Of a DNA stretch of 20,153 bases, positions 2,565 through 18,804 are shown one piece after another (positions within the stretch are counted from its first letter, which is position 1; every line of letters begins with the position of its first letter). This DNA comes from a virus. Both the position numbers and the translations under genes were made by a program. Below the pieces are notes generated by a model. It searched no databases and was not told the DNA's origin. It saw only the letters and a program-made list of their open reading frames with translations. The stretch covers positions 1 to 20,153 of the IMG/VR virus record IMGVR_UViG_3300035698_013387; one strand, 5' to 3'.

Positions 2565-2589
2565 CTAAATCGTAAGGTTTCTTTACACT

Positions 2590-2999: not shown

Positions 3000-3034
3000 C
3001 TTTGGAGTAAATTGCTTATGGAGTAATTTTTATG

Positions 3035-3070
3035 TTGACAAAGAAGATCGTGATAAACTATAAGTATAGT
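3035..3070 (+). promoter_or_regulatory. sigma70-type promoter with palindrome over the -10
   Basis: TTGACA (3035-3040) and TATAAG (3059-3064) are 18 bp apart; the alternative hexamer CTATAA would give 17. The -10 lies inside the perfect palindrome ACTATA-AG-TATAGT (3057-3070), which could be an operator. A start around 3070 would give a short leader to the ATG at 3098. Likely main promoter for the accessory genes. Confidence 0.65.
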
Positions 3071-3097
3071 CATGGATAATCAAAACAAGGAGATAAT

Positions 3098-3301: not shown

Positions 3302-3510
3302 ATAACCAAGAAGCATACGACTTTGGTTATGATTTTGGTAAGAACGGTGCAAATACTACTAACTGTCATTTCAGTATTTTTGCAACAACAGAGTTAATGA
3401 AGTCCTGGGAGAAAGGTAAGAATAAAGCGACATTGGAGGGCTGTACCTGTTCAGGTCCTAGCAATATAGTATGTAAAGCTCACGGTGAGATTAAAAGGGA
3501 GGAAGAATAA
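3298..3510 (+). CDS. RMF/CrpP-like small protein, 70 aa
   Basis: Residues about 6-46 follow the pattern of the ribosome modulation factor superfamily widespread in phages: an AYDFGYDFGKNG start, a central Cys, then a W..G...A ending (SWEKGKNKA). The C-terminal tail adds Cys residues and a His (CTCSG...VCKAH) not typical of RMF. In known relatives the core helix pair binds ribosomal RNA; whether this copy does is unknown. It overlaps the preceding gene by 4 bp and is followed after 2 bp by the next, so it belongs to the same operon. Confidence 0.65.
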   Translation: MNNQEAYDFGYDFGKNGANTTNCHFSIFATTELMKSWEKGKNKATLEGCTCSGPSNIVCKAHGEIKREEE

Positions 3511-3512
3511 CT

Positions 3513-3851
3513 ATGGCTCAAAATACAGAATGGCAGGATATAGGTGGAATTATTGAAATACCGGATGGCTGGTTTGTCCATGGCGCCAACTTTGATGCCG
3601 ATGAACCTTTTATATTAATGACTAAAAATGATGGTAGATCCAATAGCTCTGAATATGAAAAGAAAGTCTTTGTTCCAAAAGCCCTGGCGTATTATCTCAG
3701 TACCCATTTTTGTGGCTCTACTAAAATGGCTGATCGCCTTATTGAGCAAGGTAAATGGAATGTAAGAAATAAGATACAGGATGCTTTAGGGTTAACAGAT
3801 AAGCCCTGGAAGAAGGCACACCTGATACAAAAGAGACACTTAACAATATAA
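3513..3851 (+). CDS. hypothetical protein, 112 aa
   Basis: GGGAGG around 3497-3502 precedes the ATG. The N-terminal part (IGGIIEIPDGWFVHGANF) looks like a beta-rich segment and the C-terminal half is helical and basic (KWNVRNKIQDALGL). No membrane segment and no recognised motif. It is the third gene of the operon, 2 bp after the RMF-like gene. Function unknown. Confidence 0.65.
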   Translation: MAQNTEWQDIGGIIEIPDGWFVHGANFDADEPFILMTKNDGRSNSSEYEKKVFVPKALAYYLSTHFCGSTKMADRLIEQGKWNVRNKIQDALGLTDKPWKKAHLIQKRHLTI

Positions 3852-3885
3852 TAAAGCTTCATAGCCTTAAAGGAGAAGAATAAAT

Positions 3886-4071
3886 ATGCCGGATAATAAA
3901 TGCGCCAGCTGTAAGTATCACGAATCAAGTATGTGTAAACTTCACCCGCCCAGGATATTTGTCTTCATTTATGGTGCGGATATAGGAATAGGGGAAGAAA
4001 CGCGATATCCTTCAGTATATGCAACTGATTGGTGCGGTCAGTGGGAGTTAAAGGAAAATAGAGGAGAATAA
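3886..4071 (+). CDS. Cys-rich zinc-ribbon-like protein, 61 aa
   Basis: AAAGGAG at 3869-3875 supports this start. The layout is C-x2-C near the N-terminus (CASCKYH), then MCKLHPP, then DWCGQW near the end. The four Cys are spaced as in a common small phage family presumed to bind one metal ion. Such proteins are frequent in phage accessory regions, but their targets are unknown. The neighbours on both sides are small and Cys-containing. Confidence 0.7.
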   Translation: MPDNKCASCKYHESSMCKLHPPRIFVFIYGADIGIGEETRYPSVYATDWCGQWELKENRGE

Positions 4072-4074
4072 CTT

Positions 4075-4275
4075 ATGTGGTGCGGTAAGTGTAATAATCA
4101 TATAGCGGATTGTACTTGTGGAGATATGGATGAACGGCTGGCTAAGTTAAATAATAAGGCTAACGTTTTAATTAAAATCTGTAAGACCTGTGGAAAGCAT
4201 TATTCCAGGTGTAAATGTAAAACTCCTATCTGGACAACGAGCCATGACCCTGATTTAAAAGGTAAGAATAATTAA
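4075..4275 (+). CDS. double Cys-knuckle protein, 66 aa
   Basis: GAGGAG at 4061-4066 precedes the ATG. Two similar Cys clusters are visible: CGKCNNHIADCTC at the N-terminus and CKTCGKHYSRCKC around residues 36-48. Each has the form C-x2-C-x5-C-x-C, so the protein looks like an internal duplication of a small zinc-binding knuckle separated by a helix. It ends in a polar tail. A nucleic-acid or protein adaptor role is plausible but not shown. Confidence 0.7.
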   Translation: MWCGKCNNHIADCTCGDMDERLAKLNNKANVLIKICKTCGKHYSRCKCKTPIWTTSHDPDLKGKNN

Positions 4276-4318
4276 CGGGAGTTAATATAAACAATTAACT
4301 TTTTAAATGGAGAGAATT

Positions 4319-4497
4319 ATGGAAGCTTCAGGATCAGTGTTTAAAGTAGAAAAGGAAAGTTCTATGCTCGGCTTACAGCAGAGACAGACGCAATGTATCA
4401 GTGTAGCCTTTGTAAAAGGATGAAGGATGCTATCGCCGACTGCAATGCAACTGCAAAAAAGCTGAAATGGAAAGTTACGGGTTATACTCGTAAGTAG
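4319..4497 (+). pseudogene. frameshifted small gene, about 59 aa if repaired
   Basis: GGAGAG (4309-4314) precedes ATG 4319, which opens MEASGSVFKVEK. After that the reading frame that looks coding moves to another frame (GKFYARLTAETDAMYQCSLC, then helical residues to GYTRK) and stops at 4495-4497. Restoring a single A in the A-run near 4354 joins both halves into one 59-residue protein. The start (GSVFKVEKGKFYARLT) loosely resembles the arm DNA-binding domain found at the N-terminus of tyrosine integrases, though it is too short to be one. This is either a real indel, an assembly error in a homopolymer, or less likely programmed frameshifting. Confidence 0.55.
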
Positions 4498-4505
4498 GTG
4501 TTTTT

Positions 4506-4711
4506 ACTGGAAGTGGCGGAGTGGTAGACGTACAGCTTAGCGGGCTGGGGGGGATCATGAAGAAGCCTATCTGTAAGACAAGTCAGGTAAATATCCGGTA
4601 AGATAGGATGGTCCTAAAGAAACTTAATGAATATATTAACGCTTATCCTACTGAGGTAGTGCTGACTAACATTAAGTATAACCCGTGCAGGTTCGAATCC
4701 TGTCTTCCAGT
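4506..4711 (+). tRNA. interrupted tRNA-like element, class II-like 5' half
   Basis: The ends form a perfect 8-bp acceptor-type stem: ACTGGAAG (4506-4513) with CTTCCAGT (4704-4711). The 5' half has a canonical leucine-type D-arm (GGCGGAGTGGTAGACGT, 4515-4531) and an anticodon-like arm: stem CAGC/GCTG with loop TTAGCGG (4537-4543), formally anticodon AGC. The 3' half has a T-arm, GCAGG-TTCGAAT-CCTGT (4687-4703). About 138 nt separate the anticodon-like arm from the T-arm, far beyond a normal variable arm. This insert holds two helices (CCTATCT 4566-4572 with AGATAGG 4601-4607; ACTTAATG 4622-4629 with CATTAAGT 4670-4677). A degenerate intron, a tmRNA-like RNA or a tRNA relic are the alternatives. 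Confidence 0.5.
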
Positions 4712-4732
4712 ACAATAACTATTTTAAAAAGG

Positions 4733-4761
4733 TCCACCTTCCTGAGAAGCGGAAGGGTGGA
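4733..4761 (+). other. intergenic hairpin without U-tract
   Basis: TCCACCTTCC (4733-4742) pairs with GGAAGGGTGGA (4751-4761) with a single bulge and an 8-nt loop. No T-run follows. It lies 21 nt after the tRNA-like element and could be a processing or stability structure. Confidence 0.6.
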
Positions 4762-4788
4762 GCGGATATATATAAAAGGAGTTAATTA

Positions 4789-5127
4789 ATGTCACAAGGC
4801 GAGTTATTTGAATTTGATGATTGTTTTAAAACCGGAAAAATAGGTCATTATGATCGTGAATCCTTTGAGGATAGGTGTCAAGCCGTTAAAGTTGCGTTAC
4901 AGGGTTGGGCAAGTGCAACAGGAAGTGGCCGGAGACCGGAGAATTTTGGTAGGGCTATGTTTTTACTGGGTCAGGTGGTTGGAGAACGGTTAACTCAAAC
5001 GAATGTGATAAAAGTAGGCCAGGACTATGCTGCTGAACGGAACCGAAGGGCGGAAAAGGCAAGCTTGAATAAGGAAGGGTTTGTTAAACGAACGCTTAAG
5101 GTGGATAAGGATGATTTTGAAATATGA
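4789..5127 (+). CDS. hypothetical protein, 112 aa
   Basis: AAAAGGAG precedes the ATG. The protein is mixed charged and mostly helical, with a conserved-looking core (QGWASATGSGRRPENFGRAM) and a basic C-terminal third rich in Arg and Lys. It has one Cys pair far apart and no membrane segment. It is the first gene after the tRNA-like element and is followed by a 260-bp gap containing the triple hairpin repeat. No family recognised. Confidence 0.6.
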   Translation: MSQGELFEFDDCFKTGKIGHYDRESFEDRCQAVKVALQGWASATGSGRRPENFGRAMFLLGQVVGERLTQTNVIKVGQDYAAERNRRAEKASLNKEGFVKRTLKVDKDDFEI

Positions 5128-5155
5128 ATAAGGGTTTAATGTCCTTTATTATTTT
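5127..5155 (+). terminator. possible weak terminator
   Basis: AATAAGGG (5127-5134) pairs with CCTTTATT (5143-5150) including one G-U pair, followed by ATTTTTGCTT. The stem is AT-rich and the T-run short, so termination would be weak. It coincides with the start of the 260-bp gap. Confidence 0.35.
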
Positions 5156-5230
5156 TGCTTGGGAGTAAATGGTATGAATGGTTGCTTGAGAATTGAGTCT
5201 ATTAGATATATATAGATAGGGGGTCACCAG

Positions 5231-5313
5231 ATAGGCTATGTGGTAGCCTATGGGGGGTTAGTATAGGCTATGTGATAGCCTATGTGAGAGTCATAGGCTA
5301 TGTGGTAGCCTAT
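5231..5313. repeat. three 21-bp hairpin repeats at 30-32 bp spacing
   Basis: Three near-identical copies start at 5231, 5263 and 5293. Each is ATAGGCTA, a 5-nt loop (TGTGG or TGTGA), then TAGCCTAT, a perfect 8-bp inverted repeat. The spacers are 11 and 9 bp. The block is flanked by related words: GAATTGAG and TATTAGATA occur on both sides (about 5190-5212 and 5317-5347). This is the only content of the gap 5128-5387. Period and palindromy suggest a dimeric DNA-binding site array or an origin-type iteron set. Confidence 0.85.
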
Positions 5314-5387
5314 AGGAATTGAGAATCGAGTTTAGCCGGTATTAGATAGTTTAATTGTTTTATATATTTGTAGGGGAGTATGTAGTT

Positions 5388-5729
5388 ATGGAGATTAATC
5401 TTAATATGAGCTATCAGAGGATTTTAGTACCGCTTTTCACGTTATTTTGGTGGAAAAGGTTATTCGATATCAGTGATCAGGGTTATATGATCTTTAAACC
5501 CGTAATAAAAGTTAAATCCTGGAATACAGCCATCATCTTTAACCAGGATAATGAAAAGGAAAGTTTAACGTTTATTACAAAAAGGCAGCAGTATCAGAAG
5601 GACCTGGAATCTGATAGAAAAGCAATTGATAGATTTATCAAAATAGGTCATACAAATCATTGTGCTTGCCGACTTGTTCTTGGTGATGGGAAATGTGAAT
5701 GTGGTTTATGGAAGGAGACAAATGGATAG
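5388..5729 (+). CDS. hypothetical protein with C-terminal CxC pairs, 113 aa
   Basis: GGGGAG at 5373-5378 supports ATG 5388; an upstream in-frame TTG at 5355 has no binding site. The N-terminal half is hydrophobic and aromatic (ILVPLFTLFWWKRLF, residues about 12-26), possibly a membrane-associated helix or a beta core. A charged helix follows. The end (HCACRLVLGDGKCECG) carries two C-x-C pairs that could bind a metal. The stop overlaps the next start by 8 bp. Unrecognised family. Confidence 0.6.
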   Translation: MEINLNMSYQRILVPLFTLFWWKRLFDISDQGYMIFKPVIKVKSWNTAIIFNQDNEKESLTFITKRQQYQKDLESDRKAIDRFIKIGHTNHCACRLVLGDGKCECGLWKETNG

Positions 5730-6156
5730 TATGACAGACACATATACAAAGATGCTACGAGCTAAAGGTGCGGAGTGGATACAGGAAGGATGGGAGCCTA
5801 AAGTTGGGGATAAATACATCTCGATGAGAACTGGATCAATGGGTGGATATATAGATGTTGCGTTGTTCACTGTCAATGAAATGGTTGGGAATAGATTAAA
5901 ACATGATGGATTCTGGCTCCCCTCAATAGAGGACTTGTTGGGGATGGCAGGATCAATAATGGATAAACATGGAAAGCATAGTGAAACAGGCAATAGTTAT
6001 TATGGTTGCCCTAATGCCTTATTAGAAGATTTATACGAATTTTCGGCCTGTGATTGTGAATTAGGATTGCATACTATTAAGGAAGTGGCTTTGGCTTTCA
6101 TCCAACACGAACTCAAAGACTTGAAGTGGAACGGGGAGGAATGGAATAATGGATAG
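5722..6156 (+). CDS. conserved-looking hypothetical protein, 144 aa
   Basis: GGAAGGAG directly before ATG 5722 decides this start over the earlier in-frame TTG at 5662; ATG 5731 is a second possibility. The sequence has features of a small phage accessory family: EWIQEGWEPKVGDKY near the N-terminus, FWLPSIEDLLGM in the middle, and a closing LKWNGEEW. It is soluble and acidic with a mixed alpha/beta look. Function unknown. It overlaps genes on both sides and is probably translationally coupled. Confidence 0.65.
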   Translation: MDSMTDTYTKMLRAKGAEWIQEGWEPKVGDKYISMRTGSMGGYIDVALFTVNEMVGNRLKHDGFWLPSIEDLLGMAGSIMDKHGKHSETGNSYYGCPNALLEDLYEFSACDCELGLHTIKEVALAFIQHELKDLKWNGEEWNNG

Positions 6157-6307
6157 CGTGAAATACAAATTAGTCGGAGAGAATATCCTAAAAGATGGCC
6201 ACACAATGTTCCTTCAAGATATAATTAAGGATTTGAACAGAACAGCAGACCTGGAGAAAGTAAAAATAGAATTTGATGCCATGAAGCAAAAGGAAAAAAA
6301 TGGATAG
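6149..6307 (+). CDS. small hypothetical protein, 52 aa
   Basis: GGAGGA at 6135-6140 lies 8 nt ahead of ATG 6149, and the gene overlaps its neighbours by 8 bp at each end, as do the other genes of this cluster. The product is charged and helical (MDSVKYKLVG..., LNRTADLEKVKIEFDAMKQK) and could form a short coiled coil. No family recognised. Confidence 0.55.
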   Translation: MDSVKYKLVGENILKDGHTMFLQDIIKDLNRTADLEKVKIEFDAMKQKEKNG

Positions 6308-6470
6308 CCTAACAGCCCATGAAATCTTAACCAAAAAACTTATTAAACAACAGAGAAGGTGTGAACTTCTTAGATATGTCTGGAAGAGAATGACTTTTGC
6401 TCCTGGGGTTCCTTATAACCTGGAAGAAGTTAAGGCTTTAATACTTGAATGGAAAAGGAAATATGAGTGA
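6300..6470 (+). CDS. small basic hypothetical protein, 56 aa
   Basis: AAGGAA about 6291-6296 precedes ATG 6300, and the stop overlaps the next start as ATGAGTGA. The protein is basic and helical: LTKKLIKQQRRCELLRYVWK, then a turn with Pro and Gly (FAPGVPYN), then a second helix. A two-helix nucleic-acid or protein-binding peptide is conceivable. No family recognised. Confidence 0.55.
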   Translation: MDSLTAHEILTKKLIKQQRRCELLRYVWKRMTFAPGVPYNLEEVKALILEWKRKYE

Positions 6471-6654
6471 TTTAAGCGATAAAGCTATTGAGGAATTTGA
6501 TAAAGAGGAGATGGACCTTCATTACAGGGACGGCTTTTGTGAGGTTCGGGAAGGATGCGAATGGTGCCGGAGACTTCAGTATGAGCTAGATTATTGGGCT
6601 GATTTCGAAGAGGATGAAAAAGATAGAATTATGAAGGAGAAAGATGATAACTGA
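6463..6654 (+). CDS. small acidic Cys-containing protein, 63 aa
   Basis: ATG 6463 with AAAGGA a few bases upstream is preferred to an in-frame TTG at 6445. The protein is strongly acidic (about one third Asp/Glu) and has FCEVREGCEWCRRL in the middle, giving three Cys that could contribute to a metal site. It overlaps the next gene by 11 bp. Highly acidic small phage proteins sometimes act as DNA mimics or inhibitors; nothing here shows that directly. Confidence 0.6.
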   Translation: MSDLSDKAIEEFDKEEMDLHYRDGFCEVREGCEWCRRLQYELDYWADFEEDEKDRIMKEKDDN

Positions 6655-7015
6655 TATGCAACACTGGAATGAAATTTTTGAACCTGGAAATGAATTCATG
6701 TTAGATGCTTGGGCTGACTATTATGATGGAGAAATGGTCAGATGGTTCCATGAGCGTGAAGCGTTCTTGAATAAACCACTTAGCGAAGTTGTAAAAGAAG
6801 GATATGAGATAGAGATAAACTTTGTTGAGAAGGATAACATGGAAAAGAAAATAGGAATTGAAGAAGGTAACACTTGTAATCGTGATGGTTGCCAGGGAAC
6901 GATGGTTTTTGAACGGGAGGGCGCTTGCGGTTGCCATATTAATCCACCATGTCAAAACTGTGTTGATGCTCCGCTGGTTTGTGACGAGTGTGGAACAGAG
7001 TTAGAGGAGGAATAA
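6644..7015 (+). CDS. Cys-rich zinc-binding protein, possible two-part fusion, 123 aa
   Basis: AAGGAG precedes ATG 6644. Residues 1-65 are acidic and aromatic without Cys. Residues 66-123 are a Cys-rich module: CNRDGC, then CGCHINPPCQNC, then LVCDECG, enough ligands for two zinc ions. The Cys-rich part has its own ATG at 6839 with AGAAGG 5 nt upstream, so it may also be made as a separate 58-residue protein. Either a fusion of two phage genes or an internal start is possible. Followed after 3 bp by a helix-turn-helix gene. Confidence 0.65.
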   Translation: MITDMQHWNEIFEPGNEFMLDAWADYYDGEMVRWFHEREAFLNKPLSEVVKEGYEIEINFVEKDNMEKKIGIEEGNTCNRDGCQGTMVFEREGACGCHINPPCQNCVDAPLVCDECGTELEEE

Positions 7016-7018
7016 AAG

Positions 7019-7294
7019 ATGGGAAGATTGCCGCTTAACTTGGATAAAATTACACAAGAGAAGTTTCAAATGACGGAAACAGAGTTTTGGGCAGAGTATC
7101 ACAAGAAATTAAAGCTTGGTACTCGATCTCTTGCCAGATTGTTGAGTTGCAGCAGCACAGCAGTCGGAAAACGATTGGATGCGTTAAAACTCAAACGCCA
7201 TTCACCCGGGAAGGATCAGAAGTCCAAAAAACGACAAAAGGCCTTTAAAGGTGTTCCACCTATTGAATTGGCCAAGGACGAGGGAGTTATATAA
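7019..7294 (+). CDS. small helix-turn-helix protein, 91 aa
   Basis: Residues about 35-60 (GTRSLARLLSCSSTAVGKRL) form a convincing helix-turn-helix: a first helix ending LARLL, a turn, and a recognition helix with TAVGKRLDAL. A basic tail follows (RHSPGKDQKSKKRQK), consistent with DNA binding. It may regulate this operon or bind the hairpin repeats at 5231-5313, which is inference. TAATG overlap couples it to the next gene. Confidence 0.65.
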   Translation: MGRLPLNLDKITQEKFQMTETEFWAEYHKKLKLGTRSLARLLSCSSTAVGKRLDALKLKRHSPGKDQKSKKRQKAFKGVPPIELAKDEGVI

Positions 7295-7434
7295 TGTTTT
7301 ATCTATGGCACTTATGGAACATGACAACCTTCCACGATGATACCAGGGATGCAACTTTGGAGTATTGGAAGCTTCTGGACGATATAGGCGGGTGGGAAGA
7401 ATTTTTAAAAAACAGTAGCTGGAGATATATATGA
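7294..7434 (+). CDS. small Trp-rich hypothetical protein, 46 aa
   Basis: ATG 7294 overlaps the stop of the preceding gene (TAATG), with GAGGGAG at about 7280-7286 upstream. The product is rich in Trp and aromatic residues (MFYLWHLWNM at the start; EYWKLLDDIGGWEEFL) and ends in WRYI encoded by the same bases that form the ribosome binding site of the next gene. It shares an ATGA junction with that gene. Function unknown. Confidence 0.5.
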   Translation: MFYLWHLWNMTTFHDDTRDATLEYWKLLDDIGGWEEFLKNSSWRYI

Positions 7435-7682
7435 GCGAAAAAGATGATTTTTCAGAAAAGATGCGGGAAGCCCTGCTTGAGTTTGGGGGTAAGGTGGAAG
7501 AACTACTCAAAGAGTTTATCACTGACGAAGAAGCGGTAAAAAATATGCAGACAGTAACGTATTCGGATAAGCCGGGATTTATTGAGTACAGGTTTAATAC
7601 CGTCCCGATGTTTTATACGGAGATGGATATATCTGATGCTGTAGTTACTTTTAAAATAGTGAGGTATGCACATAACAGATGA
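7431..7682 (+). CDS. hypothetical protein, paralog 1 of a tandem pair, 83 aa
   Basis: GGAG at 7421-7424 precedes the ATG. An N-terminal amphipathic helix (DDFSEKMREALLEFGGKVEE) is followed by an alpha/beta half containing DKPGFIEYRF, MFYTEMDI and FKIVRY. The gene at 7738 encodes the same pattern in the same order, so the two are paralogs from a tandem duplication. The family is not recognised. The DNA around both starts is also duplicated (CTGGAGATATATATG at 7419-7433). Confidence 0.65.
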   Translation: MSEKDDFSEKMREALLEFGGKVEELLKEFITDEEAVKNMQTVTYSDKPGFIEYRFNTVPMFYTEMDISDAVVTFKIVRYAHNR

Positions 7683-7737
7683 GGACGGTACAAACTAAAA
7701 CTGGCTGGAAAGTAATAACCACCAACTGGAGATATAT

Positions 7738-7986
7738 ATGGACGAAGAAATAGCAAAGTTTCACGAAACGATGGCTAAAGCCATAAAAGAGTTTGGCGAT
7801 GATGTGGAAAATGAACTCGCAACTCTCATTCCCAAGGGATTGGAAGACAGGGTGAAGAAAATCTGTTTCGAGGATAGACCTGGATTCACCGAGTATAGGT
7901 TCGATGATATCTCGGTTTTTTATACAGAATTGTTTATACCTGAAGGTGTAGTTAAATTCAAAATAGGGAGATATATAAATGGCTAG
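7738..7986 (+). CDS. hypothetical protein, paralog 2 of a tandem pair, 82 aa
   Basis: Shares with the preceding gene the helix with EFG and VE, then DRPGFTEYRF, VFYTELFI and VVKFKIGRY, at matching positions. The start is preceded by an identical 15-base copy (7726-7740) of the other paralog's ribosome binding site and start. The two have diverged clearly in the middle (residues about 28-42), so the duplication is not recent. The 3' end overlaps the radical SAM gene by 8 bp. Function unknown. Confidence 0.65.
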   Translation: MDEEIAKFHETMAKAIKEFGDDVENELATLIPKGLEDRVKKICFEDRPGFTEYRFDDISVFYTELFIPEGVVKFKIGRYING

Positions 7987-8710
7987 AACGCTGGCAATAT
8001 ATGAACCAAAAGGAAGAGCTCTCGAATATTCACCTTTAGCCTGCAATCTTTATTCAGGATGCCTCCATGGTTGTACCTATTGTTACGGCCCTGCGGTTCT
8101 ACACAGAAAACGAGAAGTCTTCAGTGGCTTTGCCAAGCCAAGAGATAATATCCTCAAGCAAGTAGAAAAAGACTGCCGGACATTGGAAGGTGACGAACGA
8201 GAAATCTTGTTATGCTTTACGTCCGACCTTTACCAGCCCGGGGGAATTGACGACACCACCAGAAAAGCACTTCTGATCTTCGAAAAATACAATATGAAGA
8301 TCCAGGTCCTGACCAAAGGCGGGAACCGCGCGGTGAGAGACTTTGATATTCTGAAACGCAATAACTGGAAGTTCGGCACCACCTTGATATTTGTAGACAA
8401 CGCTCTTCAGAGAGAATGGGAGCCGAACGCTGCAAGTTTACTGGATCGGGTGAATACCATCAAGGAAGCCAAGAAACAGGGAATATTTACCTGGGTAAGC
8501 GTAGAACCAGTTATTGATCCGGATCAGGCTTTAATGGTGATGGAGTCTTTAATTGACTATGTAGATTTTTGGAAAGTAGGAAAAATCAATTATAACAAGG
8601 AATACGAGCAAAGAGTGGATTGGAAGAAGTTCGTCAATGATACAAAAGCTATTCTTCCTGAAGGCAAATATTACATTAAAAAAGATACTTTAGTGGCCGC
8701 AAGACTCTGA
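7979..8710 (+). CDS. radical SAM protein, SPL/photolyase-like, 243 aa
   Basis: The [4Fe-4S] cluster motif C-x3-C-x2-C is explicit (CLHGCTYC, Cys28, Cys32, Cys35) and is preceded by SPLACNLYSGC as in the spore-photoproduct-lyase-like group. Later segments fit a radical SAM barrel: LLCFTSDLYQP, IQVLTKGG, FGTTLIFVD, and WVSVEPVIDP. Such enzymes cleave S-adenosylmethionine to a radical; this group is annotated in many phages without a proven substrate. At 243 residues it is shorter than SplB and has no SPASM domain. GC content is slightly higher than in its neighbours. Its neighbours are the paralog pair upstream and a Gly/Lys-rich peptide downstream. Confidence 0.85.
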   Translation: MARTLAIYEPKGRALEYSPLACNLYSGCLHGCTYCYGPAVLHRKREVFSGFAKPRDNILKQVEKDCRTLEGDEREILLCFTSDLYQPGGIDDTTRKALLIFEKYNMKIQVLTKGGNRAVRDFDILKRNNWKFGTTLIFVDNALQREWEPNAASLLDRVNTIKEAKKQGIFTWVSVEPVIDPDQALMVMESLIDYVDFWKVGKINYNKEYEQRVDWKKFVNDTKAILPEGKYYIKKDTLVAARL

Positions 8711-8743
8711 TACCAACGATGGCCATCAAACACCATTTTGGTA
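8711..8743 (+). other. hairpin after radical SAM gene
   Basis: TACCAA (8711-8716) pairs with TTGGTA (8738-8743), and inside it ATGG (8719-8722) with CCAT (8733-8736). There is no T-run, so it is not a classical terminator. It begins immediately after the radical SAM stop codon. Confidence 0.5.
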
Positions 8744-8770
8744 AACACAACAAATAGGAGGTGATTAAAG

Positions 8771-8905
8771 ATGCCGAAAAGAGATAAAACAGGACCACCA
8801 TCAGGAGCAGGTGGAGCGAAAAAAGGAGCTGGTGGAGGCAAAGGAAATGCCTCAGGTAAAGGAACTGGAGCCAAGACCGGAGGCAAAAAAGGTACTAAGA
8901 AATAA
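8771..8905 (+). CDS. Gly/Lys-rich basic peptide, 44 aa
   Basis: A strong AGGAGGTGA (8757-8765) precedes ATG 8771. The peptide begins MPKRDKTGPPSGAGG and continues with repeating G-x-G-K units to a Lys-rich end. It has no hydrophobic core and must be disordered. The MPxxDxTGP opening resembles small Gly-rich proteins of the MPRGDGTGP type seen in many phages and anaerobes. The codon pattern, without stops and with a strong ribosome binding site, supports a real gene. It could bind nucleic acid, or be a substrate of the neighbouring radical SAM enzyme; both are guesses. Confidence 0.65.
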   Translation: MPKRDKTGPPSGAGGAKKGAGGGKGNASGKGTGAKTGGKKGTKK

Positions 8906-8916
8906 CAAAGGAGGGA

Positions 8917-8957
8917 GTGCTGGCAGTAACAAGCTGACGAGTTTATTCTGTCAGCAC
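8917..8957 (+). other. 10-bp hairpin with orphan ribosome binding site
   Basis: GTGCTGGCAG (8917-8926) pairs with CTGTCAGCAC (8948-8957) over 10 bp with one G-U pair; AAC/GTT can extend the inner helix. No T-run follows. AAAGGAGGG at 8908-8916 lies just before it without a usable start codon. Confidence 0.6.
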
Positions 8958-8979
8958 AACTTTGTAAAAGGATAAAAAC

Positions 8980-9168
8980 ATGGGTATGGCTACCACAAGA
9001 ACAGATGATCATTTACAATATATATATTATTTTCATGATAGAGATATAAAGGATATATTTGATGATCTCAATGAACATCCTAAAAAAATAATAGAGCCAA
9101 AGGAGGATATTCAACTGGCGCATAAGAAGATGCCAATGAAAAAGGCGTTTTCTGTGCGTCATGTCTGA
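8980..9168 (+). CDS. hypothetical protein, 62 aa
   Basis: AAAAGGA before ATG 8980 supports the start. The product is polar and mostly helical (YYFHDRDIKDIFDDLNEHPK), with several His and Asp residues, and ends after a basic stretch (KKMPMKKAFSVRHV) at a TGA. The same frame stays open for another 49 codons beyond the TGA (to 9315), see the separate finding. Family not recognised. Confidence 0.5.
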   Translation: MGMATTRTDDHLQYIYYFHDRDIKDIFDDLNEHPKKIIEPKEDIQLAHKKMPMKKAFSVRHV

Positions 9169-9174
9169 CGGGCA

Positions 9175-9315
9175 ATGGCTGTTCTTGATTATATTACTGA
9201 GGATGAGAGGCTACTCACACATCAGATTAGGCTTGGGCTTGATCAGTCCAAGATGGTGTCCGGTTCGATTCCGGTGAGAAGGAAGGTGCCACCGCCGATC
9301 CAAAATCGGAGGTAA
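9175..9315 (+). CDS. doubtful small ORF, 46 aa, overlapping tRNA-like DNA
   Basis: ATG 9175 opens 46 codons in the frame of the preceding gene, with no good ribosome binding site. The first 25 residues (MAVLDYITEDERLLTHQIRL) look like a plausible helix. The rest (VSGSIPVRRK onward) coincides with a T-arm-like sequence and is typical of false translations of tRNA genes. It may be the remainder of the upstream gene after a TGA mutation. Confidence 0.25.
   Translation: MAVLDYITEDERLLTHQIRLGLDQSKMVSGSIPVRRKVPPPIQNRR
9211..9282 (+). tRNA. degenerate tRNA-like element
   Basis: The length is 72 nt, as for a tRNA. CTACTCA (9211-9217) pairs with TGAGAAG (9275-9281) except one A-A mismatch. CTTGGGC (9232-9238) pairs with GTCCAAG (9246-9252) around the 7-nt loop TTGATCA, formally anticodon GAT. 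A T-arm with stem CCGG and loop TTCGATT lies at 9260-9274. The D-arm region is too short and unpaired, and the base after the anticodon is C, so this is at best a decayed or unusual tRNA. Confidence 0.35.
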
Positions 9316-9341
9316 GCAGGGTTCGAATCCCTAGCGGGTAA
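9294..9341 (+). tRNA. tRNA 3'-half-like fragment
   Basis: CCGAT/ATCGG around CCAAA (from about 9295) resembles a Trp-type anticodon arm lacking two loop bases. It is followed by a T-arm, AGGG-TTCGAAT-CCCT (9318-9332). No matching 5' acceptor strand for the 3' end GCGGGTA was found nearby. Probably a fragment next to the element at 9211-9282. Confidence 0.3.
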
Positions 9342-9363
9342 CATAATCACTTTATATATAAAC

Positions 9364-9392
9364 GTCCCCGGAATTATTGGCTCTCCGGGGAC
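9364..9392 (+). other. 9-bp hairpin without U-tract
   Basis: GTCCCCGGA (9364-9372) and TCCGGGGAC (9384-9392) are perfectly complementary with an 11-nt loop. ATTCTAAAA follows, so no U-tract. It lies about 23 nt after the tRNA-like fragment, the same arrangement as the hairpin at 4733 after the first tRNA-like element. Confidence 0.65.
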
Positions 9393-9418
9393 ATTCTAAA
9401 AAGGAAAGAAGAAATAAG

Positions 9419-9622
9419 ATGAAAATTATAATGTTAGCGGCTATGTACTGGTGGGCATTTATTATATTAGCGGTCTTAGCGTGGTCAATGAAATTAAAGT
9501 GGCATCAAGGTATTCTTGAAGTCATTGGAAGGTATGATGGATATGGGTGGTGGATCTTTTTAATAGTAGCAGCAATTGCTGGAGTGATACGATTGATGCT
9601 CAGTGGACTCAATGTGCAGTAG
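9419..9622 (+). CDS. small membrane protein, two predicted helices, 67 aa
   Basis: ATG 9419 with AAGGAAAGAAG upstream is preferred to the in-frame TTG at 9377, which lies inside a hairpin. Two hydrophobic segments are visible: residues about 3-22 (IIMLAAMYWWAFIILAVLAW) and about 43-62 (WWIFLIVAAIAGVIRLML), joined by a polar loop with KLKWHQG. Size and topology would allow a holin-like or superinfection-exclusion role. No lysin gene is nearby, so that remains a guess. Confidence 0.6.
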   Translation: MKIIMLAAMYWWAFIILAVLAWSMKLKWHQGILEVIGRYDGYGWWIFLIVAAIAGVIRLMLSGLNVQ

Positions 9623-9634
9623 ACTGGAGATCAA

Positions 9635-9982
9635 ATGAAATATGAATATAAGATAACTTTCAAGCGATTAACGGGTATAATAATGCCTGAATCTTTTTAT
9701 AAACCAATTCCTCCGGATGATTGTTGGGAGCATTACTCGACAGTTAAAAGAGGCGATCACCTTGTTTATTATTGGAAAAGAGAGATAACCGCGAAAAGCT
9801 TTAAAGATCCTGAAAAACAAAAGATTCTTCTATGGATGGAGAATTACATGGTAGAAGAAGACTTCCCAAAAGAATACCTAGATGCCTTATCCAAAATAGT
9901 AGGCCTCTTCAATGATTCCGAAGAAACAGAAAAAGAAATATTCGAGTTTGTAATAAACCTCTTCCAGAAGTATGCGGAGTGA
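9635..9982 (+). CDS. hypothetical protein, 115 aa
   Basis: CTGGAG about 11 nt upstream of ATG 9635 serves as ribosome binding site. The N-terminal half is beta-like with many aromatics (YEYKITFKRL, HLVYYWKRE). The C-terminal half is acidic and helical (YLDALSKIVGLF, then EEIFEFVINLFQKYAE-like sequence). Soluble. No recognised family. It sits 12 bp after the small membrane protein gene and just before the next small gene. Confidence 0.6.
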   Translation: MKYEYKITFKRLTGIIMPESFYKPIPPDDCWEHYSTVKRGDHLVYYWKREITAKSFKDPEKQKILLWMENYMVEEDFPKEYLDALSKIVGLFNDSEETEKEIFEFVINLFQKYAE

Positions 9983-9984
9983 TT

Positions 9985-10182
9985 ATGCAGGATATAACTA
10001 AAATACCTTATGATGAACTTGTTAAAGATCGGCAGGATTCAATCATTGATATTGGTCTTTGTGAGATTGCGTTATTGCAAGGTATTACCAAGTGTGGCGG
10101 TAAGAGTGTTAAAGAGCGTTTGAATACAAACAAAAACATTGTAGCTAAAATAGATGCTGAAATTGAAAGAAGGGAGCAATAA
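9985..10182 (+). CDS. small hypothetical protein, 65 aa
   Basis: CGGAG at 9975-9979 is well placed for ATG 9985; the in-frame GTG at 9979 overlaps it. The product is helical with two Cys (GLCEIALLQGITKCGG) and ends in a charged helix (NKNIVAKIDAEIERREQ) that could form a coiled coil. Its stop overlaps the next start as TAATG. No family recognised. Confidence 0.55.
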   Translation: MQDITKIPYDELVKDRQDSIIDIGLCEIALLQGITKCGGKSVKERLNTNKNIVAKIDAEIERREQ

Positions 10183-10550
10183 TGGAAGTATCCCAGGAAA
10201 TTAAAAACTATCTTGAACTCATTGATGCACAGTTCCTAAAATACAAACTGGAACGTATCTCCAGACTTGACACAAAATGGGGAATATGGTCTCGTAAAAT
10301 GAATTTAGAGATCAGGCCCAAGATGGATAAGCATCCTGACTCGTTGTTATACAAACACCTGTTCGTATATTGGATTACAATATCTCAATTGTTACAGCTT
10401 CATTTTAACTCGAAATTGGGTAAGACGTTCCTGAAGCGGAAGCTCAAGAAAGAAGCAGCACAACTTAAAGCAATGATTCTTACTGGCGATGTACCAGCCC
10501 TTAAGCTGGAAGAATTAACAAACAAACTCCTTTCAAGTACCAAACCATAA
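10182..10550 (+). CDS. basic helical hypothetical protein, 122 aa
   Basis: Starts by TAATG overlap with the previous gene, with AAGGGAG just upstream. The protein is basic and almost entirely helical, without Cys. A hydrophobic stretch in the middle (LFVYWITISQLLQLHF, residues about 65-80) could be a buried or membrane-peripheral helix. The C-terminal helix is amphipathic and Lys-rich. Last gene before the packaging module. Unrecognised. Confidence 0.6.
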   Translation: MEVSQEIKNYLELIDAQFLKYKLERISRLDTKWGIWSRKMNLEIRPKMDKHPDSLLYKHLFVYWITISQLLQLHFNSKLGKTFLKRKLKKEAAQLKAMILTGDVPALKLEELTNKLLSSTKP

Positions 10551-10555
10551 TGGGG

Positions 10556-10601
10556 TTGGCCGATCCCAAACAATCATGCCAAGCTGTAGAGAGCTTGCCA
10601 A
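10556..10601 (+). other. alternative hairpins between genes
   Basis: CAAGCT (10580-10585) pairs with AGCTTG (10592-10597) around a 6-nt loop. TTGGC (10556-10560) can instead pair with GCCAA at 10578-10582 or with GCCAA at 10597-10601. The structures are mutually exclusive and lie just ahead of the gene starting at 10617, so they could influence its translation. Confidence 0.4.
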
Positions 10602-10616
10602 TGGAAATTATTGTCT

Positions 10617-10940
10617 ATGACTTCTAGGGGTAAATTCGTCAGATTAGACTATAAATTATTAGATTCAATGAGCTGGAATCAATTATCAGTTTATGCACAA
10701 GCCACTTATGTTGTATTACGAAAGCATAGTTGGATAACTGGTGTGCAACTTGATAAGTTTCCGTTCGGTTGGACTGATATGCCAAATCCTAAGGCTATGT
10801 CAAAGGGAAGGTGGCAAAAATCTATGAATGAATTGTTAGTGAATTCCTTTATAAATAGATTAGAAGTAGGCAGCTACCCGAACAGAAAAACCATTTATGA
10901 GTTCTCTAATTGGTGGGAACAAAATTCAACAATGGATTAA
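10617..10940 (+). CDS. winged-helix-like protein, 107 aa
   Basis: ATG 10617 is chosen; TTG 10611 in frame is possible because GGAA at 10603 is weak for both. The sequence (FVRLDYKLLDSMSWNQLSVY, then AQATYVVLRKHSW, then a later KGRWQKSMNELLVNSFINRL) resembles the winged-helix fold at the N-terminus of phage replisome organisers and related DNA-binding proteins: helix, helix, then a recognition helix and wing. It has no further domain. Position directly ahead of the terminase genes suggests a role in DNA recognition for packaging or regulation, by inference. Confidence 0.55.
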   Translation: MTSRGKFVRLDYKLLDSMSWNQLSVYAQATYVVLRKHSWITGVQLDKFPFGWTDMPNPKAMSKGRWQKSMNELLVNSFINRLEVGSYPNRKTIYEFSNWWEQNSTMD

Positions 10941-10951
10941 GCGAGGAAAAG

Positions 10952-11545
10952 ATGGCAGTAGCAAAAGATAAAATAAACGATTTGGGCCTCAGCGTAGGGA
11001 ACGTGGCGGGCAAAGACCTTAAGTATTTAGCTTATGTCAGAACTTGTACCAGGGACAATTGCCCTGTGTTTAAAAGCTGCACCTATAATAAAAGAGGTAA
11101 ATGCTCGCTTGAACATACCTTCCTGAAGAATATCTATGTTTCATGGGTTGATCCGGTGCATGGCCTGGGGGATGTTTTAACACAACCTCAATTGCATAGA
11201 CTTGGCAATCATGTAATGCCTCTCTACAGTATATATATCAGATTATCAAAGGAGATGTTTGCCTTAGACGCGTTGACGTACACTGACGGCAAACTCCAGA
11301 AAAGGCCTTATCCTCAGTTGAAGGAAATACGCGATACTCTTAAATCAATTACCATGGAGCTAGATAAAATAGGCCTGGACAAACTGTGGGAGAAAAAGTT
11401 CAAAAATAAAATAATGCCCGCAGACCAATCTATACCTGAGGCAATGGATTCTGAGGCTATGAAGTACGGTAACACTAATAGATATAAAGTTTTAGAAAAA
11501 GATAAAAAGGATAAGGAGGCCAAATCAAATGACGATGATTCGTGA
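10952..11545 (+). CDS. Cys-cluster protein, candidate small terminase subunit, 197 aa
   Basis: GAGGAAAAG before ATG 10952 decides the start; the upstream in-frame ATG at 10910 overlaps the previous gene deeply. A Cys cluster at residues 32-51 (C-x4-C-x5-C-x7-C, around CTRDNCPVFKSC) probably binds zinc. Helices follow (PLYSIYIRLSKEMFALDAL; LKEIRDTLKSITMELDKI) and the C-terminus is a charged, disordered tail. The small terminase normally lies just upstream of TerL and binds the packaging site. Position and helical content fit, but no TerS family is recognised directly. The 3' end overlaps TerL by 17 bp. Confidence 0.55.
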   Translation: MAVAKDKINDLGLSVGNVAGKDLKYLAYVRTCTRDNCPVFKSCTYNKRGKCSLEHTFLKNIYVSWVDPVHGLGDVLTQPQLHRLGNHVMPLYSIYIRLSKEMFALDALTYTDGKLQKRPYPQLKEIRDTLKSITMELDKIGLDKLWEKKFKNKIMPADQSIPEAMDSEAMKYGNTNRYKVLEKDKKDKEAKSNDDDS

Positions 11546-13361
11546 TGAGTATCGTGATGGTGGTGAAGGATTTATAAAGTGGGCTGAAGAAAATGCGCGA
11601 CTACCTATTTATCCTGAAGGCTCTGATCTTCCGGAATGGTTTTTAATAAGTGAGCTTCCAGATACTAAAAATCCCGATACAAATAGATCATACCACGATA
11701 TATGGGAAGCTCAGAAAGAAATACTTAGAGATGCTTTAAGGATGGAAAACGGTAGGTTCGTGCATAGGTTGATCGTATTCTGCTGGCCTCGTGGTGAAGG
11801 TAAGTCAATTATCGTTTGTCTAATAAAGATATGGAAGTTTGTTTGCTGGATAGATCATAAGATCGTATTAGGTGCAAATTCAAAGGACCAGGTTAAATTC
11901 GTTCATTATGATATTATCCGGGATATCATAGTAAACTCACCAAATATATTAGCCGAAGTTGGTCTGGGTAATGTAAAGCAAAAAGAAATAAGCTTAACTG
12001 ACGATAAGAAAACAGTAAGGTCTTTTATAAGAACTATCAGTTCCTTCACTGGTATCGTATCAAATGTTAACGGCTACACCTTCTCTGAAATGTTCGATAT
12101 GAAGAATCCCCGCTTTTTTGTTCAGCTTGATGGTTCTATCCGTAATATTCCAAATGCCTTCGGTTGTATTGACTCCACAGTTTCTGCAAAAGATCATATT
12201 CTGTATAAATTATATAAAACGTACCAGGAAAACAAAGATCCTACTCTATACTTCTCATATCGATATAGCGAAAAAGGAAGTGTAGAGGATTATTGGAATC
12301 CTAATATGCACCAGCAACAGCTTGATTCATACCGGGCAAAGTTCCCTATGGGAGATTTTGAAAGATATTTCCAGAATCTCTGGTCAGCTGGAGCTGAAAG
12401 AGTGTTTACAGATGAAATGATTGAAGCCACTAATTACCTTGGCTCCGATAGAACAATTAACACACACAAGACGGTTATTGAATTAATCTCTAAGAGAAAT
12501 AAGATTATTAATACTGAGACAAAACTTATAGAAGAGGGGGGCTTGCCTTCTTTCGAGTTAGATACTGAAAGATACCTTAAAGAAGTAGACGACAGGCTAT
12601 GGCCTGTAAACGATATATATCAATTGGAATCACCTTATGGATCAATTCAGGCAGCAGAAATAAAAGATGTTTCTACATTGTCCGATATATACGATACGGA
12701 TTGGGCTGTCCTTGCAGGATTTGATAGGGCTGATCCAATGAAAACAAGAACTGGTGCAAGAACCATAACAGGAGCAGTTGCAAAAGGCTTAGTTGGAAGT
12801 AGGTCTCATCCTTTTCTTGATGAAAATGTTGTCCCGCTTTATATTTATTTACTTCTTGGCATAAGAAACATAGAAGATCATTCGTTAAGTGGTATAAAGA
12901 ACTTCTTTAATGAAGTTCATAACGAATATGATGGCCTGGACGTTATAGGATCAGAGAGGTGGGGAGCTTGGGATTTAGCTCCATGGTGTGAAGAGAATGA
13001 TATCGCCCTGGACCTATGGGCAACGAACTACAATATTCAGAAAACTATGTTCACAGAGGTATATACAGTATTTCAAAAAGGACGGTTCAAGACTCCAACC
13101 ATAGGTATTCCCGGTTCTAAGCAAGACGATATACTAAAAGAAGAGGCTGCTTTATTTGACCATGATACTGATAAAAGGTGGTTCGGTAGTCCAGAGAAGA
13201 ATGAGAAATATGGAACTCAGGATGATGCAATGTTTATGCTGGGTGCCGCAATGTATGCAGGTAGAAACTTAGGAGTATCAGATTTTAGAATCAGAAGTGG
13301 AGCTATCAATTTTGGAGATTTCTTCACAAACGATAGAAACTTAGGAGATTACGATAAATAA
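11529..13361 (+). CDS. terL: terminase large subunit
   Basis: ATP-driven DNA packaging motor and nuclease. The Walker A motif is WPRGEGKS (residues 86-93) in the usual position after an N-terminal adaptor region. The nuclease half starts at about residue 395 with the acidic motif GFDRADP (Asp399), followed by a segment with IGSERWGAWD (about 473-482) and a late acidic pair GTQDDAM (Asp565, Asp566) that would complete the metal site. A canonical Walker B acid pair is not obvious, and FSEMFDM may be its place. At 610 residues it is slightly long for TerL. AAGGAGG at 11513-11519 supports ATG 11529. It would dock on the portal encoded next. Confidence 0.85.
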   Translation: MTMIRDEYRDGGEGFIKWAEENARLPIYPEGSDLPEWFLISELPDTKNPDTNRSYHDIWEAQKEILRDALRMENGRFVHRLIVFCWPRGEGKSIIVCLIKIWKFVCWIDHKIVLGANSKDQVKFVHYDIIRDIIVNSPNILAEVGLGNVKQKEISLTDDKKTVRSFIRTISSFTGIVSNVNGYTFSEMFDMKNPRFFVQLDGSIRNIPNAFGCIDSTVSAKDHILYKLYKTYQENKDPTLYFSYRYSEKGSVEDYWNPNMHQQQLDSYRAKFPMGDFERYFQNLWSAGAERVFTDEMIEATNYLGSDRTINTHKTVIELISKRNKIINTETKLIEEGGLPSFELDTERYLKEVDDRLWPVNDIYQLESPYGSIQAAEIKDVSTLSDIYDTDWAVLAGFDRADPMKTRTGARTITGAVAKGLVGSRSHPFLDENVVPLYIYLLLGIRNIEDHSLSGIKNFFNEVHNEYDGLDVIGSERWGAWDLAPWCEENDIALDLWATNYNIQKTMFTEVYTVFQKGRFKTPTIGIPGSKQDDILKEEAALFDHDTDKRWFGSPEKNEKYGTQDDAMFMLGAAMYAGRNLGVSDFRIRSGAINFGDFFTNDRNLGDYDK

Positions 13362-13367
13362 TTTTAC

Positions 13368-13396
13368 TTGACACAGTATAAAAGATATGCGATATG
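13368..13396 (+). promoter_or_regulatory. possible promoter for the head genes
   Basis: A consensus TTGACA at 13368-13373 begins just after the TerL stop. At 17 bp the -10 would be GATATG (13391-13396), a weak match, so activator help or another -10 is possible. Transcription would start near 13403. Confidence 0.4.
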
Positions 13397-13446
13397 TGAC
13401 CTTTAATTAACGTTAACTTAACGTAAACTTATTAAATTGAAGGTCA
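13397..13446 (+). promoter_or_regulatory. hairpin sequestering the portal ribosome binding site
   Basis: TGACCTTTAATT (13397-13408) pairs with AATTGAAGGTCA (13435-13446) over 12 bp with one G-U pair. The 3' arm contains the GAAGG ribosome binding site and the A of the portal ATG. The loop carries the GTTAAC box. Confidence 0.6.
13407..13422. promoter_or_regulatory. GTTAAC box, portal copy
   Basis: TTAACGTTAACTTAAC is the exact reverse complement of 2983-2998. It lies downstream of the TTGACA element, near the expected transcription start, a position typical of a repressor operator. It overlaps the 5' arm of the hairpin above. Confidence 0.5.
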
Positions 13447-15047
13447 TGGCTAACAATGACGATCTTGAGTTAACAGAAGAACAAGATATCAAAGACCAAT
13501 TTGCTACTCCGTGGCAATATGGCCCTGGTGTCAAACAGTATGTTGACGCTGACGGTGCTCCTATCCGAATCTCCTCCTCAGATAAATCAGACCCAGAATT
13601 AACCCGCCAAGTATTACAATCTCGTTGCTGGGAAAAGTTCCAATTAAATCCTCATGTGAATACAAGTGTAAGAGGCATAGTCGGTAGAGTTACTGGCGAT
13701 GGCTTTGGCGCTTTTTCTGATGAACAGAAAATCCAAGAGGTAATAGATGAAGTAGAACTTGATCCCAGGAACAGACTATATGACTACTGGAGACAGTTTG
13801 TTGGAAGATCCTTTATTGAAGGGGAGCTGTTCTTACGGCTGACAATACATGATAATGGATTTATAGAGATAGACTTCATTGATCCCAGCGCTGTAACCGG
13901 AGCAAGTGGAGATGGTGTTATATTCCATTCGAGAAAACCCAATCTACCTCTTTTCTATTGTTTAGAGTATGAAGATACCAACGGACATACAGTTAAAGAA
14001 CAAGTTCCTTCCATATTTGTTGCAAGATATCCAGACCTTCTTGAAGATGCCAAGAAAAATAATAACTTCAGTGTCAGTGAGCAGCAGAACAGTAAATCCC
14101 GTAAAAAGATATATAAGCAGTTTGGTGGGTTTCGCAGCTTCATGATATTTTGGAACAAAGGCTTCGTAGTAAAAAGAAACATATCTCATTTAAGAACAGT
14201 TCTGGAATGGCTTGAATATTGGGAAGACCTTAAAAAATACGAAATAGATCATAAGAAGAGTTCCGGTGCTTATCTCTGGGTAGTGAAAATAAGTAATATG
14301 AAAACCTGGAAAACCTGGTTAAGCCTTACGGATGATGAAAGAGCAAAAAGCGGGATAGCTACTGTAAAAACCCCTGGCAGTACATTGGTTTTGGGGCCCG
14401 ACATGGACCTTACCGCGACCAACCCACAGTTGCCTAAGATATCCGATAGTGATACAGACATACTACACATGGTAACATCAGGCTTGAATGAGGAAGAAGG
14501 TGTTACAACCGGACAATCAACAGGAACCTTTGCTTCTGTTAAAGCCTCAAGAGGGCCAATGAGTGACAGGACCACTGATGAAGTTACTTATTTTGCCAGA
14601 TTCTACAGGTATGATTTTTGGGGAAGTATCTTTTTCTTAAAATCAGCGGTTACTGATTTCCCAAAAACATTTAAAGTAAAAGAAGCGGTTTCATTTGACG
14701 ATAAACAGAAGCCTGTATTCAAGGATATTGAATATAGTCCGGAACGTGTAATAGAACTATCCTTCCCTACATCTGAAATAGATAGTCCGGAAGCGGTGGC
14801 GAAAGCAACTCTTGGAGTAAAGCACGGATCGTTGTACGACCAGGCCGGATTGCCGATGGCCTCTTTAGTTAAAAAGCTTGGATTCGGTAATTATAAAAAA
14901 GCTCGATTGCAGAAGGCAACGGAAGAAGAAAGATACCCCGCTCTTGCATCAGCAGTAGATGAAGGTGATCAAGAGAAAGAAATAGAACCAGGTAAAGATA
15001 AAAATAAAAAGAAAGATGAAAAAAAAGATGACACTAACAAGGAATAA
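13446..15047 (+). CDS. portal protein
   Basis: Dodecameric ring at the capsid vertex through which DNA enters, and docking site for TerL. The assignment rests on a portal-like pattern: an early core (NPHVNTSVRGIVGRVTGDGF), an EGELFLRL segment, IDFIDPSAV, a long wing-to-stem region with LRTVLEWLEYWEDLKKY, then LNEEEGVTTGQSTGTFASVK before the last domain, and its place right after TerL. It is 533 residues, a normal portal length. The C-terminus is a Lys/Asp-rich disordered tail. The start is unusual: ATG 13446 has GAAGG only 2 nt upstream and both lie inside a hairpin; TTG 13437 is a poorer alternative. Confidence 0.85.
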   Translation: MANNDDLELTEEQDIKDQFATPWQYGPGVKQYVDADGAPIRISSSDKSDPELTRQVLQSRCWEKFQLNPHVNTSVRGIVGRVTGDGFGAFSDEQKIQEVIDEVELDPRNRLYDYWRQFVGRSFIEGELFLRLTIHDNGFIEIDFIDPSAVTGASGDGVIFHSRKPNLPLFYCLEYEDTNGHTVKEQVPSIFVARYPDLLEDAKKNNNFSVSEQQNSKSRKKIYKQFGGFRSFMIFWNKGFVVKRNISHLRTVLEWLEYWEDLKKYEIDHKKSSGAYLWVVKISNMKTWKTWLSLTDDERAKSGIATVKTPGSTLVLGPDMDLTATNPQLPKISDSDTDILHMVTSGLNEEEGVTTGQSTGTFASVKASRGPMSDRTTDEVTYFARFYRYDFWGSIFFLKSAVTDFPKTFKVKEAVSFDDKQKPVFKDIEYSPERVIELSFPTSEIDSPEAVAKATLGVKHGSLYDQAGLPMASLVKKLGFGNYKKARLQKATEEERYPALASAVDEGDQEKEIEPGKDKNKKKDEKKDDTNKE

Positions 15048-18330: not shown

Positions 18331-18804
18331 ATGAAAAAATTAAAAGGTCTCTTTTCTGATCCTTCGGAAATGAGTCGCGGTGCCGCCAATATGCTGATTC
18401 CGATGTCATCTAAGTTCTCCGGTGAGTTAGTTTTAGACCGGGACACTCTTGTTGGTGCTCCTGGAAGCGGAGGAAGGGTATCTAACGTTTGGCTATCCGT
18501 TGAAGCCAGTGGTAAAGATGACTCTGCTACCTTGCAGGTCGCTGGTGACATTATGATAAACGGAACAAGCTGTCTCACAACTCAGCCCGTAATTGCTCAT
18601 GTTAGCGGTGAAGCTTCACAACAGAAAACAACCGTTATAACTGGCGATACAGGCATAACTCAGGCTGTTATGGATTCTGACAATAACGAGTTTTCTCCTG
18701 GGGATGTAATTACGGGTCTGCTTGATTTAACCCGTACTACTTCTCCCACTACGGAGATTCTAAACCCTGTTATGGTTGTAGAATTTGAGCCTGCAATTAA
18801 TTAA
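18331..18804 (+). CDS. head-associated structural protein, 157 aa
   Basis: AAAGGAGGGAG precedes ATG 18331. After a short basic N-terminus (MKKLKGLF) the protein is beta-rich and Ser/Thr/Gly-rich, with no Cys pair, ending in a hydrophobic strand (NPVMVVEFEPAIN). This composition fits a virion protein. Location right after the capsid protein suggests a decoration, spike or head-completion role. No family recognised; the neighbouring decoration candidate does not share obvious motifs with it. Confidence 0.6.
   Translation: MKKLKGLFSDPSEMSRGAANMLIPMSSKFSGELVLDRDTLVGAPGSGGRVSNVWLSVEASGKDDSATLQVAGDIMINGTSCLTTQPVIAHVSGEASQQKTTVITGDTGITQAVMDSDNNEFSPGDVITGLLDLTRTTSPTTEILNPVMVVEFEPAIN

Follow-up and report, generated by a model that had tools for sequence, protein, structure and literature searches.

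A predicted hairpin over the portal start and a candidate family-wide promoter at the terminase–portal junction of a group of phages

In bacteriophage T4, the leaders of genes e, soc and I-TevI have been described as carrying RNA that hides the start of translation (PMC3014915, PMC2988022). Long transcripts of gene e form an inhibitory structure that lowers lysozyme synthesis 100-fold, and the gene's late promoters sit where the DNA encodes the 5′ strand of that structure (PMC3014915). A preliminary description of the phage DNA studied here had likened its portal gene to some T4 late genes, proposing that the portal start is locked by a hairpin in mRNA read through from the terminase and is freed in mRNA from a local promoter. 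The likeness is apt, given the e, soc and I-TevI precedents (PMC3014915, PMC2988022); overall, what that description observed was mostly right, and its interpretation is partly supported by the analysis below.

The window, by which we mean the whole stretch of DNA that was analyzed, corresponds to a virus record in IMG/VR with a length of 20,153 bases. The gene for the terminase large subunit (11529–13361, plus strand; PHROG 2 match, E 4.9e-10) is the cistron upstream of the portal gene (13446–15047, plus strand) and the source of any read-through mRNA; 84 nt separate the terminase stop (13361) from the portal ATG (13446). The portal was recognized by matches of the PHROG 21 profile, which 9 of 19 aligned family members share (best 1.5e-5), and of an AlphaFold2 model (mean pLDDT 65), whose best PDB matches include the portals of lambda, SPP1 and chi (best E 2.9e-8). 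By its predicted fold and its position directly after the terminase, this gene is the portal of a tailed phage. A search for annotated phages with a similar portal returned none, and a search of cellular genomes for the host gave four MAG matches in unrelated bacterial groups, so no host was assigned. Elsewhere in the window, 7979–8710 encodes a radical SAM protein (Pfam PF04055; PHROG 13321 and 9252) with relatives among repair families of the spore photoproduct lyase/photolyase type.

A hairpin is predicted over the portal start, and the 12-bp stem that had been reported there, with its 5′ arm beginning at 13397, is present. The 5′ arm TGACCTTTAATT (13397–13408, plus strand) pairs with the 3′ arm AATTGAAGGTCA (13435–13446, plus strand) in 12 contiguous pairs, 11 Watson–Crick and one G-U, across a loop of 26 nt. 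This stem is the core of the MFE fold and spans positions −11 to +1 of the portal start. Its 5′ arm lies directly after the −10 element and spans the predicted transcription start, such that roughly half of this arm would be missing from a local transcript. Its 3′ arm covers the A of the ATG and the Shine–Dalgarno (SD)-like GAAGG (13439–13443, plus strand). The ribosome binding site had been placed inside the stem, and the GAAGG is indeed covered; however, it is a poor SD that ends only 2 nt before the ATG, unlike the AAGGAG-type sites found 5–9 nt upstream of the start in most clearly annotated window genes. By the rule used, a well-spaced SD was lacking at 21 of the 77 portal starts examined, the window's included, and the sole other nearby portal start is an in-frame TTG at 13437. 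When the start region was held fixed and the upstream gap was shuffled, no stem over −4 to +1 exceeded 10 pairs in any of 300 shuffles, a value to be discounted somewhat because the site had been picked beforehand in the preliminary description. The overall fold of the region is only moderately stable (z −1.29), and an Rfam search gave no match. Two smaller hairpins are also seen. One, ACGTTA-ACT-TAACGT (13410–13424, plus strand), is predicted by the fold inside the loop, and its pairing is kept in the nearest relative, L002, with one C-G to U-G change. The other, GTCAT-ggctaaca-ATGAC (13443–13460, plus strand), was read from the sequence directly over the start; it would stay in a short mRNA and is absent in L002.

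As a measure of accessibility, we computed the free energy needed to open positions −16 to +3 of the portal start while the 5′ end of the message was varied. The cost was about 9–11 kcal/mol for 5′ ends from 13250 to 13398 (10–11 kcal/mol for most at or before 13396) and 6.5 kcal/mol for 5′ ends from 13400 to 13410, a relief of about 4 kcal/mol, and the predicted local start at 13403 falls just beyond this step. The residual 6.5 kcal/mol probably comes from the second hairpin, GTCAT...ATGAC at 13443–13460. The model predicts relief of the start, not an open start. The proposed lock in long mRNA and bypass in short mRNA is consistent with the predicted drop from 10–11 to 6.5 kcal/mol, but the short mRNA is still predicted to be structured and the stem is not conserved in L002. 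As a separate observation, the start of the gene at 18331–18804 is predicted to be more structured than that of the portal (11.3 kcal/mol for −8 to +3).

The local promoter was then judged from the window phage and from its relatives. The TTGACA that had been noted at 13368 is exact (13368–13373) and lies within CTTGACA (13367–13373, plus strand), the candidate −35 of the portal promoter. After a spacer of 17 nt comes a weak extended −10, TGC-GATATG (13388–13396, plus strand; TG at 13388–13389, GATATG at 13391–13396), and spacing arithmetic puts the predicted transcription start about 7 nt beyond it, at 13403 on the plus strand. A consensus sigma70 scan of the window did not report this TTGACA-N17-GATATG; by the bare scan alone the promoter would have been rejected, and it was the family comparison that reversed this. 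Relatives were collected from IMG/VR by terminase and portal, the gap was located in 274 loci, and removal of near-duplicates left 131 unique gaps, of which the 77 with a length of 40–300 nt were used for promoter counts. TTGAC occurs on the coding strand in 66 of these 77 gaps, as against 9.9 ± 2.7 in shuffles (maximum 18), and on the minus strand in 5; in control stretches of equal length it was found in 17 of 74 after the portal stop and 8 of 60 before the terminase. When the 66 gaps were aligned on TTGAC, the preceding base was C in 47, with A/T-rich sequence before it, TA followed at a spacer of 16–18 in 54 (null 22.4 ± 3.7, maximum 32), and column +23, on which no selection had been made, was T in 50. 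Between related pairs of gaps the −35 is kept, the −10 is usually kept and the remainder drifts. These counts argue that the terminase–portal gap holds a family-wide promoter of sigma70 type for the structural genes. The −35 of the window phage matches that of the family in position and sequence, and its CTTGACA and the TATAAAA that follows are unchanged in L002. The promoter is likely, as judged from sequence, to function in the window phage as well. The proposed start near 13403 holds as arithmetic, and the local promoter gains strongly from the family comparison, but the −10 matches at only 3 of 6 positions (2 of 6 in L002), belongs to the weaker end of the family's range and is not shared by the two phages. 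The TATAAAA at 13377, which L002 conserves, was also considered as a −10; transcription would then begin at about 13389 and leave the stem complete in the transcript, but this is not favored for want of a good −35 at a fitting distance. A T4-type late promoter TATAAATA was not found; the nearby TATAAAAG at 13377 differs from it. A second TTGACACARTATAAAA was sought elsewhere in the window, with none found. Separately, the gap exceeds 300 nt (up to about 2.9 kb) in 45 of the 131 non-redundant relatives, L005, L006, L011 and L042 among them, and insertions appear to be especially frequent at this junction.

Conservation of the pairing in relatives, which had been proposed as a check, gave a divided answer: L002, whose portal is 91% identical, breaks the stem, but a different stem can hide its start. 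At the positions of the arms L002 has GGTCCCTTAATT and TATTGAAAGTCA, and about five of the twelve pairs, as read from the alignment, are lost without compensation. The alternative stem, formed with TGACACAATATAA, joins TGAC-CAATATAA, which belongs to the −35 and spacer, to TTATATTG-GTCA at the start, and the predicted opening cost falls by about 4 kcal/mol, to 3.8 kcal/mol, once the TGAC-CAATATAA arm is lost. The window phage and L002 are two cases, too few for the re-formed stem to be called selection. A wider comparison was made by a swap test in 62 gaps, in which the segment before the start that a local transcript would lose was set against those of the other 61 gaps, themselves natural promoters with a similar composition. 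A gap's own segment hid the start at p<0.05 in 10 of the 62 gaps, versus 3 expected (Stouffer z 2.5), and in 9 of 60 (z 2.1) when the window phage and L002 were left out; with dinucleotide shuffles in place of swapped segments, the respective z values were 2.5 and 2.2. The window's own segment was the best of the 62 natural segments at hiding the window's start (p 0.016); against its own dinucleotide shuffles it gave p 0.066 (0.089 in an earlier version). The median relative shows no hiding (median p 0.43). Strong cases, with a change of 8–14 kcal/mol, are L013, L032, L276, L025, L021, L040 and L034, although some relatives' starts are uncertain, such as that of L276, whose hairpin resembles a terminator. 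In L021 (TATTGTTTTCTC / GAGAGGAAACAATA), L034 and L032 the −10 box is itself within the 5′ arm. From these folding predictions (z 2.1–2.5), the T4-like logic of a locked long and an open short message seems to recur in a minority of the family and not to be universal. Apart from these, L147, L186 and L187 carry, in the interval from the −10 to the SD, a small hairpin that adjoins the SD without covering it; between close relatives one of its base pairs has changed on both sides, from A-T to G-C.

We tentatively favor, at a probability of about 0.4, the reading that the terminase–portal gap of the window phage is a structural-gene promoter whose downstream DNA also specifies the 5′ arm of a hairpin that would hide the start. 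The family's own promoter, CTTGACA-N17-TA..., of host sigma70 type, would drive the structural genes from within the gap. Messages read through from the terminase would carry the whole stem and hide the portal start, and messages begun near 13403, lacking the outer half of the 5′ arm, would have a start that opens more easily, by about 4 kcal/mol. Computation establishes the stem, the promoter signal across the family and the predicted change in accessibility. Our reading would further have the promoter fire at 13403, and fire late, the read-through mRNA be abundant and the change in accessibility alter translation; this last consequence is drawn from likeness to T4 gene e (PMC3014915) and I-TevI (PMC2988022). 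The locus would then be a known T4-type trick at a new gene, the portal, and is still only predicted.

It is quite possible, on the same evidence, that the gap is simply a conserved structural-operon promoter, with transcription alone timing the portal and the hairpin incidental. The promoter signal is overwhelming and general, whereas start hiding is found in about one gap in six and its sequence is unconserved between close pairs (the window phage and L002, and L020 and L037). What speaks for more than a promoter is that the 12-bp stem exactly over the start went unmatched in the 300 shuffles, that hidden starts are in excess across the family (10 versus 3 expected) and that L002 forms a different stem over its start.

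A further possibility, which we consider credible, lies in the GTTAAC (13412–13417) of the gap, to which the preliminary description had ascribed potential transcriptional control. It forms part of the 16-bp word TTAACGTTAACTTAAC (13407–13422, no strand assigned), which contains the palindrome GTTAAcTTAAC (13412–13422) and lies just downstream of the predicted transcription start, a location that suggests repression. A second exact copy stands at 2983–2998 on the minus strand, upstream of the early gene cluster. Such a match arose in 0 of 1000 shuffles of the gap, but once when the noncoding early region was shuffled 200 times. There are also six GTTAAC in 2580–3005, versus 0.29 expected (0 of 1000), and the palindrome, unlike the stem arm, is kept in L002 as GTTAASTTAAC with a flipped base at its center. 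The 16-bp word is thus probably an operator, a site for a shared regulator, to judge by these repeats. In its full form this explanation has a phage regulator bind TTAACGTTAASTTAAC, the portion of the gap that is conserved, both here, beside the start and probably for repression, and ahead of the early genes around 2983, with the palindromes giving rise to the RNA fold as a by-product; it is compatible with the promoter and does not exclude the hairpin switch. Transcriptional control by this box is hence plausible, given the exact repeat and a conservation better than that of the stem, but in an IMG/VR search with the gap motif of the two phages L002 was the sole further copy, a search for relatives of the early region in which to test the operator found none, and the regulator was sought and none was identified.

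The surroundings of the second copy have features of their own. GTTAAC and GTTAA words cluster in the noncoding 2580–3005 before the early genes, the 16-bp word included, and about 40 nt downstream of this array TTGACAAAGAAGATCGTGATAAACTATAAG, at 3035–3065, likely serves the early cluster as a sigma70 promoter. The 1.4 kb of 1660–3097 lack convincing genes and contain terminator-like hairpins (1928–1951 and about 2836–2878) and repeated AT-rich words; they could be a regulatory or replication region. The early proteins of 304–1659 and 4789–5127 had no relatives in IMG/VR, unlike the widely shared head genes, and most tested proteins of 304–1659 and of the small genes in 3098–11545 had no PHROG match.

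We think it distinctly unlikely that the window phage lacks a functional local promoter, so that the portal, of which 12 copies are needed per head, would be made from read-through mRNA only and be kept low by its weak SD and the hairpin. The poor −10 (3 of 6, and 2 of 6 in L002), the placing of GAAGG just 2 nt from the ATG and the silence of the promoter scan would fit this; the fit of the −35 to that of the family in position and sequence, and the unchanged CTTGACA and TATAAAA in L002, argue against it. That the junction hairpin is a transcription terminator or processing site is highly improbable, for although several relatives (L008–L011, L276) have terminator-like hairpins at the junction, no T-run follows the window stem, the terminator scan did not list it and Rfam gave no match. 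In those relatives the stem and T-run stand just before the portal start, and in L276, where the 5′ arm contains the predicted transcription start, a locally begun transcript would evade the terminator.

A bolder extension of our favored reading, which we regard as unlikely though worth stating, is that the whole family times its entry into structural gene expression through a promoter at the junction, and that the DNA of this promoter has time and again been put to use as the 5′ arm of a start-hiding hairpin; function would keep the layout while the pairing sequence is reinvented, and only mRNA begun locally would yield portal. The reinvented arms would be those of the window stem, at the −10 and transcription start, of the L002 stem, at the −35 and spacer, and of the stems of L021, L034 and L032, which contain the −10. 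If this were true, the T4 lysozyme trick would be a general device rather than something peculiar to T4 and its dangerous late genes, and one piece of DNA would serve as both promoter and RNA lock. The portal nucleates head assembly; early or excess portal could plausibly misdirect it, and the lock would be a guard against this. The family-wide promoter, hairpin aside, offers a concrete annotation for several hundred uncharacterized viral contigs.

Set beside ordinary sigma70 promoters at phage module boundaries, the candidate promoter shares with them the TTGACA, the 17-nt spacer, a TA-rich −10, an upstream A/T tract and a frequent TG extension; it differs in that its position is conserved in most relatives though the gap is otherwise largely unalignable, and in that its −10 is loose beyond the first TA. 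The hairpin-regulated homing endonuclease genes segB and mobE resemble this locus in having hairpins that sequester the ribosome binding site of phage late genes inside longer transcription units (PMC2988022), but they are homing genes with T4-type promoters, and no homing endonuclease was recognized at the window junction. From the T4 leaders of e (lysozyme), soc, 49 and I-TevI the window leader differs as follows: its promoter is of host sigma70 type and lacks the T4 late TATAAATA box; it stands before the portal gene, which opens the structural operon; only half of the arm is predicted to be lost, with the short mRNA still structured, as seen from sequence and folding predictions; and the pairing is not conserved in L002. 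We did not file it as a member of the gene e type because conservation in a close relative and a T4-type promoter were both looked for, and neither was found. What it shares with those leaders is a helix that would sequester the start in long upstream transcripts (PMC3014915, PMC2988022) and a nearby promoter, predicted in the window, that overlaps or adjoins the DNA for the 5′ arm, so that its transcripts would miss part or all of that arm and the lock would differ between long and short mRNA. L021, L034 and L032 carry the −10 box itself in the 5′ arm, as does T4 gene e its late promoters (PMC3014915).
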